From positions 9,400,125 through 9,464,124 of the forward strand of contig NZ_JHEG04000001.1 of assembly GCF_000760695.4 (NCBI RefSeq): a stretch of 64,000 bases of DNA, given 5' to 3'. The position numbers and the translations under genes are program-made. Below, one piece after another: positions 5,789 to 41,937 of the stretch; within the stretch, counting starts at the first letter, position 1, and each line of letters opens with the position of its first letter. Under the pieces are notes generated by a model that saw only the letters and a program-made list of their open reading frames with translations, was not told where the DNA came from and searched no databases. This stretch comes from Tolypothrix bouteillei VB521301. Its GTDB lineage: Bacteria > Cyanobacteriota > Cyanobacteriia > Cyanobacteriales > Nostocaceae.

Positions 5789-5937
5789 GACAGGAAGCAG
5801 GAAAATATTGAGTGTTGTTGATGTAATAAAAATAACATAATATTAGAAGGCTCTTATTTGATTTTTGAAATATACGTAGGGTCAGCATTGCCCACCCTAC
5901 ATTAAACCTTTTCATAAAAAAATAGCACTCCTCACTG

Positions 5938-6002
5938 AGTTACAAACACCTCTTCCTTGTCTCCCTTGTCTCCCTTGTTCTGACTCAAATAAGATTGCTA
6001 TC
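5938..6002 (+). repeat. Interspersed repeat family R2, copy 1
   Basis: Begins TTACAAACACCTCTTCC, followed by TTGTCTCCC units, and ends CTCAAATAAGATTGCTAT. The same arrangement occurs at 23413-23714 (split by an insertion), 35617-35679 (inverted) and 58001-58074. It abuts the stop codon of the 6001-7431 gene. Confidence 0.75.
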
Positions 6003-21944: not shown

Positions 21945-23333
21945 CTACACCAATCTACTTCTAATTTCCTCAGCCAAATTTTCCAACGAAACTTCTATTT
22001 GCTCTCGTGTTTTCAAATCCTTGAGAGCCGCTTTTTGTGCTGCTGCTTCCTCAGAACCAATAATGACACAAAATTGAATTCCCTGTTTTTCAGCTTGTTG
22101 GAATTGTTTGCCCAAAGGTCGTTGCTCAAAGTTTGTAACAACATTAATTCCAGCTTTACGTAACTTTTGAGATACATTGAGATATACAGGCATCAAATCC
22201 TCTTGCAAGTTTACCACGATCGCCTGAGTGGGAGTTGGCGTCAGTGGGTTCAGAATACCGGCTTTTAACAAACGACTAATTAAGCGAGTTAAACCAATGG
22301 AAATGCCTACACCGGGCATTTTTTCACCTAAAAATACACCCACTAATTCTTCATACCTACCACCGGAACAAATGCTTCCTAAAGCTTCATGTCCAACTAA
22401 ACTTGTTTCGTAAACAGTCCCTGTATAGTAATCAAGACCGCGAGCAATAGATAAATCGATACAGAAACGATTTTCTCCAACACCTAAATTGCGAACGCCA
22501 GAAATAACTGTTTCTAATTCCGTAACTCCCAAGTTAAATATCTCAGCTTCTGATGCCGATTGCGCTAAGTATTTAAGTTTATCTAAGATTTCGTCAGCCG
22601 TTCCCTTAATATTAATAAAATCAATAATTTTTTGCGCTTGCTCTACTAAAACTCCTTCTTTTTCCAACTCCTGCTTAACCTTCGCCTCACCAACTTTTTC
22701 TAAAGTATCAATAATACCGATACAAGATTTAATTTTCTCAGCTTCTACACCTACCGATTTAAAGAACCCCGTAAGTACCTTACGATTATTAATACGTATG
22801 AGAAAATCTCCAATGTTAATCGCTTCAAATATCTCAGCAATAATAGCAGGCATTTGAGCATCGTAAAACAAGCTGAGTTCGCGACGCCCTACAACATCAA
22901 TATCACATTGTCTAAACTGACGGAAACGTCCATCTTTTGCCCTCTCTCCTCGAAAAACAATATCCATTTGGTAACGGGCAAAAGGAAAAGTTAAATTATT
23001 AAGGTTACGGGCAATATATGCTGCTAAAGGAACCGTTTGGTCGAATTTTAAAGCTCGTGCTTCCGAACCCGTTTCTCCTGCTTTATCCTTTTCTGCTTGC
23101 CGATTGGGTGGCAAGATAGGATTAATACTGTAGATTATATTATCACCTTGATTGCCTTTTGCTTGTAAAACTTCCAAACGTTCTACAGCCGGAGTTTCTA
23201 TAGGTGTAAATCCATAACTTTCATAAACTTTCCGGATTGTATCAAGTAAGTATACTTCCAAACGTTTCTCACCGGGAAGAAATTCTGGAAAACCACTGGG
23301 AGTCGAAAAGTTAATTTTTTCAGATTTTGCCAT
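21945..23333 (-). CDS. hisS: Histidyl-tRNA synthetase
   Basis: 462 residues from the ATG at 23333 (a TTG eight codons upstream is less likely). Class II synthetase: motif 1 region with PVERLEVLQ-like helix, motif 2 FRGERAKDGRFRQFRQCDIDVVG, the HisRS-specific ARGLDYYTGTVYE, motif 3 GVGISIGLTRLI, and a C-terminal anticodon-binding domain (QAIVVNLQEDL... QRPLGKQFQQAEK). It charges tRNA-His. Essential housekeeping gene sitting between accessory genes. Confidence 0.95.
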   Translation of the reverse strand: MAKSEKINFSTPSGFPEFLPGEKRLEVYLLDTIRKVYESYGFTPIETPAVERLEVLQAKGNQGDNIIYSINPILPPNRQAEKDKAGETGSEARALKFDQTVPLAAYIARNLNNLTFPFARYQMDIVFRGERAKDGRFRQFRQCDIDVVGRRELSLFYDAQMPAIIAEIFEAINIGDFLIRINNRKVLTGFFKSVGVEAEKIKSCIGIIDTLEKVGEAKVKQELEKEGVLVEQAQKIIDFINIKGTADEILDKLKYLAQSASEAEIFNLGVTELETVISGVRNLGVGENRFCIDLSIARGLDYYTGTVYETSLVGHEALGSICSGGRYEELVGVFLGEKMPGVGISIGLTRLISRLLKAGILNPLTPTPTQAIVVNLQEDLMPVYLNVSQKLRKAGINVVTNFEQRPLGKQFQQAEKQGIQFCVIIGSEEAAAQKAALKDLKTREQIEVSLENLAEEIRSRLV

Positions 23334-23412
23334 ACAAATATTTTGGTCGAGACTCAAGAATCTATATTAAACAATTATTAAAGATAATACCAAAGGCGAG
23401 TAATATAGCAGC

Positions 23413-23714
23413 CCTAAATGATTTACAAACACCTCTTCCGGGAGCGTCCCAAAGAGCGCAATTGCCCTCAGAATAGAATTCTAGGGCTACACAAACGCTC
23501 GTCCCTTCGGGTTCACCAGTCGCCAGGGCGTGGGAAACCCGCCTGCAGCCCTGAACTCACCACCTACGTAGACTTCTTATTAAGTCCGCGCAGGCGGACT
23601 TTGTTTGTATAGGCGTGATTTCAATCACAAGCATATTTTTTACAAATTGGGATGCTCCCCCTCTTCCTTGTCTCCCTTGTCTGTCTTGTTTAGATCTCAA
23701 ATAGGATTGCTATA
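23413..23714 (+). repeat. Interspersed repeat family R2, copy 2 (interrupted)
   Basis: Left part CTAAATGATTTACAAACACC (to 23439); right part CTTCCTTGTCTCCCTTGTC ... CTCAAATAGGATTGCTATA (23660-23714). Removing 23440-23667 restores the uninterrupted form seen at 5938. Confidence 0.78.
23440..23659. mobile_element. MITE-like element R1 with 8-bp target duplication
   Basis: 220 bp. Left end GGGAGCGTCCCAA; right end, complemented, GGGAGCATCCCAA: 13-bp terminal inverted repeats with one mismatch. Flanked by perfect direct repeats CCTCTTCC (23432-23439 and 23660-23667), a unit present once in uninterrupted R2 copies. No transposase ORF inside, so movement would need an enzyme encoded elsewhere. Interior includes a GCG-rich block (GTGGGAAACCCGCC) shared with repeats at 25990 and 56440. 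Confidence 0.82.
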
Positions 23715-23882: not shown

Positions 23883-24329
23883 TCAACGCAAACGTTCTTC
23901 TTGAATTAAAGTTCGTTGGAAGAGTTGATGATCTTTAAACCAGTGCCAAGTCCGGGAACGATAGTTATTGCAGGGGCTGAGATTAATCATTTCATATAAA
24001 TACATACCCGGTGCAGTTTTATAAGAAAACCACAAAATAATTGTTGCATTGTCAATTTCCCAAGCTTTTCCATCAATACGTTCTGTATTAAACCATAATG
24101 CTTTGTCTCGATAAGTGCCTGGAAACTGATGCTCTTCTTGTTTACCATTAGCCCACTTATAACGATTAATTTGATAGTAGGAATAAGCATCATCGTCAGG
24201 AAACTGGCACGTCAAATGAGACTCATGCTTATCTATGATTTTTCCTTCTACGTCAACTACTGTATACGTACCCAGCCAATCTCCTTCATGACGTACCAGA
24301 ACAGGCATTTCTTCTCGAATCAGTGACAT
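23883..24329 (-). CDS. Calycin-like hypothetical protein (resembles DUF3598 N-domain)
   Basis: 148 residues; ATG at 24329 with GAAGGAG upstream. Beta-rich, with RHEGDWLGTYTVVDVEGKIIDKHESHLTC, YSYYQINRYKWANGKQEEHQFPGTYRDKALWF and IILWFSYKTAPGMYLYEMINLS; this resembles the cyanobacterial DUF3598/lipocalin-like fold, which binds small hydrophobic ligands. It lies 72 bases downstream of the aldehyde dehydrogenase gene on the same strand, so probably the same transcript. Substrate unknown. Confidence 0.68.
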   Translation of the reverse strand: MSLIREEMPVLVRHEGDWLGTYTVVDVEGKIIDKHESHLTCQFPDDDAYSYYQINRYKWANGKQEEHQFPGTYRDKALWFNTERIDGKAWEIDNATIILWFSYKTAPGMYLYEMINLSPCNNYRSRTWHWFKDHQLFQRTLIQEERLR

Positions 24330-40657: not shown

Positions 40658-41320
40658 TTATGAGGTACAATAACAGCACTTAGTGAACCAATTTTTTAAA
40701 TGTTGAGGATTCATCAAGTCGAGAGCAACAGAGATAACTTTATCAACCATTTCGGTTGTAGTTGGAGAAAAAGTACGTAAAAAAGATTTAAGTTGTGACC
40801 ACCATAATTCAATGGGATTAAAATCAGGAGAATATGGAGATAAACACAAGACTTTTGCACCTACAGATTCAATCATTGGTTCGATTGATGCTAGTTTATG
40901 TGCCGGTAAATTATCCATAACTACTACTGCTCCCGGCCATAATTGAGGCAATAAGAACTTCTCAATAAATCCTTCAAAAGCTAGGCTATCCATTGAGTTA
41001 TTTATTGTCATTAATGCCACAACTTTTTTAAGACTTATTGCTCCAATCACCGTAACTTTTGCTCCCCGGTAAAATGGCTTCATTTCATATACTCTTGTTC
41101 CCTTTTGTGAACGTGCATGCGTTCTTGCTAAACCCAGTATTACCCCTGTTTCATCTAAAAATACCAAGTTTTCTGGCTCTATCTCCTTGACTTTTTCCCA
41201 ATATTCTACTCTGAGTTTTTGAACTCTTGGAGTTGCTGCTTGGCTACTCCGCAATGTTTTTTTTTGCGATTTAATCCTAATTTTTGTAAAGAACGACACA
41301 TTGCCGTCTGACTCACCCAA
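40658..41320 (-). CDS. IS630 transposase, orfB (DDE catalytic part)
   Basis: Catalytic domain: VFLDETGVIL (first Asp), VVVMDNLPAHK (second Asp) and FNPIELWWSQLK (Glu), the DDE triad of IS630/Tc1 enzymes. Listed from its first in-frame start, but it is probably made only by a -1 frameshift from orfA at an A-run near 41257-41265, so there may be no independent start. The C-terminus is complete, ending inside the left inverted repeat. Confidence 0.85.
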   Translation of the reverse strand: MGESDGNVSFFTKIRIKSQKKTLRSSQAATPRVQKLRVEYWEKVKEIEPENLVFLDETGVILGLARTHARSQKGTRVYEMKPFYRGAKVTVIGAISLKKVVALMTINNSMDSLAFEGFIEKFLLPQLWPGAVVVMDNLPAHKLASIEPMIESVGAKVLCLSPYSPDFNPIELWWSQLKSFLRTFSPTTTEMVDKVISVALDLMNPQHLKNWFTKCCYCTS

Positions 41321-41604
41321 TTACCTGTCTTTGCCGCAAATAATTCACAGAATTCCACTATTGTTGCATCCGGATTCTCTGACACTAGTTCTCTTAACTC
41401 TAATTCCGCATTTGTCAGATGACTAAATCGTGGCTTACCCGGTTTTAATGGTTGTAAATTACCATGACTTTTTTGTTGCTTTACTAGCTTTTGTACTAAA
41501 CTTTTGCTCACTGCAAATCTGAGTGCTACTTGACGAATCGAGATTTTTTCCTCAATATGCGCTGCCACTATTTTTTCTCGAATATCTACTGAATATGCTT
41601 TCAT
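41206..41604 (-). CDS. IS630 transposase, orfA (DNA-binding part)
   Basis: 132 residues. Helix-turn-helix domain MKAYSVDIREKIVAAHIEEKISIRQVALRFAVSKSLVQKLVKQ, then a second winged helix (LVSENPDATIVEFCELFAAKTGNWVSQTAMCRSLQKLGL). This is the end-binding half of the transposase. ATG at 41604, just inside the right inverted repeat. Confidence 0.85.
   Translation of the reverse strand: MKAYSVDIREKIVAAHIEEKISIRQVALRFAVSKSLVQKLVKQQKSHGNLQPLKPGKPRFSHLTNAELELRELVSENPDATIVEFCELFAAKTGNWVSQTAMCRSLQKLGLNRKKKHCGVAKQQLQEFKNSE
41257..41265 (-). other. A9 slippery run for the transposase frameshift
   Basis: Nine A residues (minus strand). orfA reads CGC AAA AAA AAA CAT; orfB continues in the -1 frame as CAA AAA AAA ACA. 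This fits programmed -1 frameshifting or transcript slippage, known in IS630-type elements. Confidence 0.65.
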
Positions 41605-41781: not shown

Positions 41782-41937
41782 GGGAGCATCCCAAAGAGTG
41801 CCAAGTGCCCGCAGAATAGAATTCTGGCTATACAAACAAAGCTATGCAGGCTTTAAATAAAGTCCTCGCAGTCAAACTTGGTCTGTATAGGTATGATTTC
41901 AATCACAAGCGTGTTTTTTCCAAATTGTGATGCTCCC
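41782..41937. mobile_element. MITE-like element R1, copy 2
   Basis: 156 bp with left end GGGAGCATCCCAAAG and right end TTGTGATGCTCCC. Internal phrases match copy 1 (CAGAATAGAATTCT, ATTTCAATCACAAGC). Flanks CTTGAAGT and CTTAAAGC are a degenerate 8-bp target duplication (6 of 8). Shorter inside than copy 1. Confidence 0.72.

Follow-up and report, generated by a model that had tools for sequence, protein, structure and literature searches.

The window analysed here, a stretch of 64,000 nucleotides from Tolypothrix bouteillei VB521301, contains a 220-bp non-autonomous element (MITE) that inserted into a copy of another repeat, R2, with duplication of 8 bp of the target, and that is one of a family dispersed in the host genome (Table 1). 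We estimate at roughly 0.87 the probability that this insertion took place by DDE-type transposition, with an ISKra4-family transposase that recognises GGGAGCRTCCCAA-type ends acting on the MITE in trans. Under this scheme, the MITE would have inserted into an existing R2, leaving the 8-bp duplication; the transposase moving it would come from an ISKra4 lineage with a gene divided between two ORFs, an arrangement shared with the ISMich2 group; and the insertion sequence (IS) would have been lost from the host, where its passenger MITEs remain. We infer mobilisation by an ISKra4-family transposase because IS of this family present in other cyanobacteria have identical ends and the same duplication length. 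MITEs are a known kind of element; the assignment to a parent, the hairpin slot near the ends and the conserved extra ORF in a 1.77-kb IS are new.

Table 1 Features of the nested insertion, of R2 and of a second MITE copy in the window.
Feature	Position	Strand	Basis
Left part of the interrupted R2	23404..23439	+	compared with 30 aligned R2 loci
Left copy of the 8-bp target duplication, CCTCTTCC	23432..23439		sequence
Non-autonomous element (MITE), 220 bp	23440..23659		sequence, BLAST, end-pair counts
Left terminal inverted repeat, 13 bp, GGGAGCGTCCCAA	23440..23452	+	sequence
Left subterminal hairpin, GCCCTCAGAATAGAATTCTAGGGC	23464..23487		predicted fold, position from sequence
Inner palindrome, AAGTCCGCGCAGGCGGACTT	23582..23601		sequence
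Right subterminal palindrome, GTGATTTCAATCAC	23615..23628		sequence; pairing absent from the whole-copy minimum-energy fold
Right terminal inverted repeat, 13 bp, GGGAGCATCCCAA	23647..23659	-	sequence (reverse complement)
Right copy of the 8-bp target duplication, CCTCTTCC	23660..23667		sequence
Right part of the interrupted R2	23668..23714	+	compared with 30 aligned R2 loci
Uninterrupted R2 copy (target octamer 5949-5956)	5922..6001	+	sequence, 20-mer matches, 30-locus alignment
Second, more diverged copy of the MITE family (flanks CTTGAAGT / CTTAAAGC, alike at 6 of 8 bases)	41782..41937		end search, sequence

The 220-bp segment is short, lacks a transposase gene, encodes nothing recognisable and is bounded by terminal inverted repeats, of the form GGGAGCRTCCCAA with a single G/A difference between them, and by a target duplication. 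A preliminary description of this DNA, which reported a perfect 8-bp duplication and 13-bp inverted ends around 220 bp, was correct base for base. When the first CCTCTTCC is joined to the bases past the second one, the sequence at 5940-5970 is obtained, and the R2 20-mer spanning the insertion point has 53 genomic matches, of which 25 are exact and 28 have one or two mismatches (the reversed control has none), a number that refers to uninterrupted copies only, as a junction-spanning 20-mer gives no count of interrupted ones. This shows that the empty state of the site is common, in agreement with the nesting originally described, and it contradicts the possibility that the segment is an invariant part of R2. 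An alignment of 30 of the 53 places shows that R2 itself is short, that its inverted ends are imperfect (TATAGCARTCCTA ... TAGGATTGCTATA) and that it contains a run of TTGTCTCCC-like units that varies. The genes on either side of the MITE are a DUF3598 gene (23883-24329, minus strand) and a histidyl-tRNA-synthetase-like gene (21945-23357, minus strand), the latter with its start towards the MITE. In G018, the only other genome of the same genus in our draw, the orthologous intergenic region has neither the R2 20-mer nor a 13-bp end at up to three mismatches; unrelated sequence stands there in place of R2 and the MITE (G018:C1:156903-157628).

The exact end 13-mer occurs 61 times in the 9.95-Mb host genome, against 0 for the reversed pattern, and the extended 17-mer occurs 158 times with up to two mismatches, against 12 for its reversed control. 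The excess is weaker within the window alone, where the 13-mer with up to two mismatches has 7 matches for 1.53 expected, a number reached in one of 100 shuffles. BLAST of the segment against the host gave at least 84 matches including itself, the others being partial and, among the 40 of 368 candidates that were scored, forming a mosaic of orders and orientations. Ends were paired in a sample of 80 host segments (252,905 bases) holding 60 of the 61 exact ends and part of the ends with one or two mismatches, a candidate pair having one end with at most one mismatch and the other with at most four, 60-700 bp apart. Twelve of the 98 pairs have a perfect 8-bp duplication and seven a duplication with one mismatch, versus 0.24 and 0.20 with shuffled partners. 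These 19 elements (about 0.4 expected) are 132 to 315 bp long and carry 19 different duplication sequences. The other 79 pairs have no duplication, and 18 of the 60 exact ends lie inside the 19 elements; the 42 outside them may be decayed, nested, solo or mispaired. Given the 61 exact ends and the 19 of 98 pairs with a duplication, the segment is therefore one of a dispersed MITE family, and the genome-wide search suggested in the preliminary description bears out its view of a MITE-like element with further copies that have the same ends and their own duplications. The second copy in the window (Table 1) is near an IS630-family transposase in two overlapping frames (40658-41601), one part of which scores above and the other below the family cut-off.

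These counts also bear on whether the segment is an ordinary structured intergenic repeat of the REP type, its 8-bp flanks being a coincidence or part of R2. A palindrome-rich, apparently non-coding and highly variable interior is what such a repeat would have; nevertheless, R2 reads straight through the site at its 53 matches, and 19 different duplications around 19 elements far exceed expectation, which makes this explanation very improbable.

The ends are not restricted to the host. The 17-mer GGGAGCRTCCCAAWKWG is present in 43 of 145 genomes of the same family, host counted, and in 9 of 120 genomes drawn from the order, two of which belong to the same family (the host and G031), so that the other families of the order account for 7 of 114 genomes; the reversed 17-mer was found in none of the genomes of either draw. 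Exact copies number 50 in the host and 27 in G018. Relatives yielded 17 elements of 120-215 bp in a scan, made with no shuffle control, whose output was restricted to pairs with one mismatch at most; in 13 of the 17 the duplication is perfect. Thirteen of the first 20 relative loci gave no element with a duplication, two of these through a contig end. In the plasmid collection no record covers 80% of the segment, and two Trichormus plasmids match bases 64-128; a comparison of three loci with Rfam gave three matches, all under the gathering score. In the draft genome G119, a contig start is found no more than 55 bases away from 31 of the 33 reverse-strand ends, a pattern that assembly breaks at a many-copy element would produce.

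The same ends are found on ISKra4-family IS of relatives. The first pointer to this family was L116, a copy of 1496 bp that lacks a duplication and whose transposase is broken. IS of 1.77-1.79 kb that have GGGAGCATCCCAA at either end and are flanked by a perfect 8-bp duplication occur in Calothrix membranacea (L167/L255), Pelatocladus (L163/L260) and Nostoc (L256 and L258); among the first four 1.77-kb IS to be studied, L170 and L171 lack a duplication, which is perfect in L163 and L167. The IS of about 1.77 kb have their terminal 13-18 bp in common with the MITE: 18 bases, GGGAGCATCCCAATTTGG, stand at both ends of L258 and are common to many host MITE ends, and the last 24 bp of the MITE (23636-23659) agree at 23 of 24 bases with an end of the 1.78-kb IS in L163, the similarity ending after about 24 bp. 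Three transposases of these IS score 271-281 bits, versus an NCBI ISKra4 cut-off of 205. Their gene lies over two frames in a -1 relation, with a run of T8-T9 in the overlap, in L255, L256 and L258 and also in L260, although OrfB of L163/L260 is broken, the layout expected of two ORFs that would be joined by a -1 frameshift.

The association of ends and transposase extends to other loci. Among the best 80 of 100 loci of transposase relatives in a named collection, some of them copies within one genome, 54 have an inward end pair, and perfect duplications of 8 bp and of 9 bp are present at 28 and 6 loci, respectively; the 72 candidate pairs at these loci include 34 perfect duplications, versus 0.56 with shuffled partners. 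A second type of IS, of about 1.17-1.2 kb, has GGGAGCATC-type ends and 8- or 9-bp duplications; a 7-bp duplication considered for some 1.2-kb IS was rejected, these duplications being of 9 bp. In four ISKra4-family IS of 1.18-1.2 kb (L148, L152, L155 and L157) the duplication is a perfect one of 9 bp whose first and last bases are G or C, a rule to which not all other 9-bp cases conform. Many other ISKra4 loci that were fetched (e.g. L128-L137) have no such ends, which therefore mark part of the ISKra4 family. The ISKra4 model has matches in 97 of the 145 family genomes, above cut-off in 45, and was matched in 37 of the 43 genomes with the 17-mer and 60 of the 102 without it (p = 0.0018, uncorrected for kinship, and IS ends may themselves contain the 17-mer).

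The host itself has one ISKra4 match, a fragment covering model positions 308-420 of 422, whose 3.3-kb locus has no end-like sequence nearer than three mismatches. This sole match falls outside the window, in line with the earlier remark that no matching transposase is inside it. The full-length IS with the same ends that had been proposed as a target of search was thus found in other cyanobacteria, but none was found in the host with the ISKra4 model; likewise, G018 has no ISKra4 match at E 1e-3. Since the host has only a fragment and G018 none, yet both have many 17-mers, the host copies look orphaned, their parent IS being lost from the host or absent from the assembly, and they are probably immobile unless a transposase arrives from outside.

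That no intact ISKra4 transposase was detected in the host is also what one would expect if a transposase of another family with similar ends had mobilised these MITEs. We regard this as unlikely, given that ISKra4-family elements match in both end sequence and duplication length, and that the only other family searched genome-wide in the host, PF14706 (Tnp_DNA_bind), was rejected as a parent: its three full-length host frames, of 457 aa, lie in loci without a pair of such ends. A fourth PF14706 match is a fragment, and its locus has two end-like 13-mers, each with two mismatches.

The putative ISKra4-family parent resembles the ISMich2 group (p-MULT 4, Mutator-like DDE), described as having a transposase over two ORFs and only simple IS among the elements treated (PMC3942029). 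The likeness consists of an NCBIfam ISKra4 score above cut-off and two ORFs in -1 relation with the T8-T9 run; we use the group name for this resemblance, rather than as a tree-based placement. In contrast to those simple IS, the 1.77-kb IS has an extra 136-aa ORF, and the MITE of the window differs from the group in encoding nothing recognisable. The type II MITEs of Anabaena sp. 90 are about 100-300 bp long, have no parent IS in their genome and include a sample group predicted to fold with three inverted-repeat sets (PMC3542288). Compared by description, the MITE of the window is similar in size, nostocalean host, three-hairpin fold and parentless genome. A parent found only outside the host genome would give a plainer account of parentless MITEs such as those of Anabaena: the IS is lost and the passengers stay. 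No mention of GGGAGCATCCCAA was found in the literature searched.

Nezha is reportedly also a MITE of cyanobacteria.

The conserved 136-aa ORF follows the transposase in the 1.77-kb ISKra4-family IS (L167:994-1401, minus strand; L255:3054-3461; L258:3052-3459). Two examples that were searched have no Pfam or NCBIfam match, and 204 related proteins were found at E 1e-3, several of them called transposase by their source. Its dN/dS is 0.07-0.21 in the 8 of 10 pairs that allowed a calculation, dS being saturated in some. Weak relatives occur in other ISKra4 loci (L150, L151, L154 and L286), and L073 has a fragment of this ORF near a MITE-type end, which may belong to a decayed IS; a frame in L073 that looks like an IS4/IS50-type transposase had prompted the PF14706 search of the host.

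Besides their tips, the ends have hairpins in common. Host, relatives and IS together provided 215 distinct ends of 75 nt, of which we kept the 91 with a CTAYRY landmark; 38 of the 124 dropped contain the IS-type TCGCGA. A hairpin of at least 5 bp ends at the landmark in 69 of the 91, versus a mean of 13.5 and a largest value of 21 in 20 shuffles, with a median span of bases 30-46 in MITE-type ends. The hairpins comprise 39 distinct sequences and have 16 distinct innermost stems of 5 bp, whose 5' arms differ at 4 or 5 of 5 positions in 67 of 120 comparisons, which measures variety rather than covariation as the stems were preselected for pairing. In six IS, 10 of 12 ends show an 8-12 bp hairpin at about positions 38-71 (no shuffle control): every left end has one, and so do the right ends except those of L259 and L260.

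A subterminal hairpin at both kinds of end is what would be seen if, as a refinement of the ISKra4-family explanation, the MITE had arisen from one 1.77-kb IS by internal deletion and its hairpins were what is left of the subterminal hairpins of that IS. Shortening of such an IS does occur, as a 1407-bp copy with a perfect 8-bp duplication is found in Richelia sinica (L293). However, the hairpin sequences are unrelated, TTCGCGA-type in the IS and AGAATAGAATTCT, GCGATTGAAATCGC and others in the MITEs, and the hairpins occupy nearby rather than identical positions, so this origin is possible but doubtful. We also put forward, as a speculative and rather unlikely idea, that the ends are a two-part device, in which a fixed GGGAGCRTCCCAA tip is accompanied by a free-sequence hairpin in a subterminal slot, selected for its shape. 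If so, MITE and IS would keep the shape, and stems could be swapped or rebuilt without loss of mobility. Our hypothesis is that the hairpins have a role, be it in docking of the transposase, in the folding of the ends or in insulating transcription, and stems that are paired but unrelated make transposase recognition a testable question. In the relatives L062, L066 and L081 the same tips enclose just one long predicted hairpin, and the three-hairpin layout is therefore not universal.
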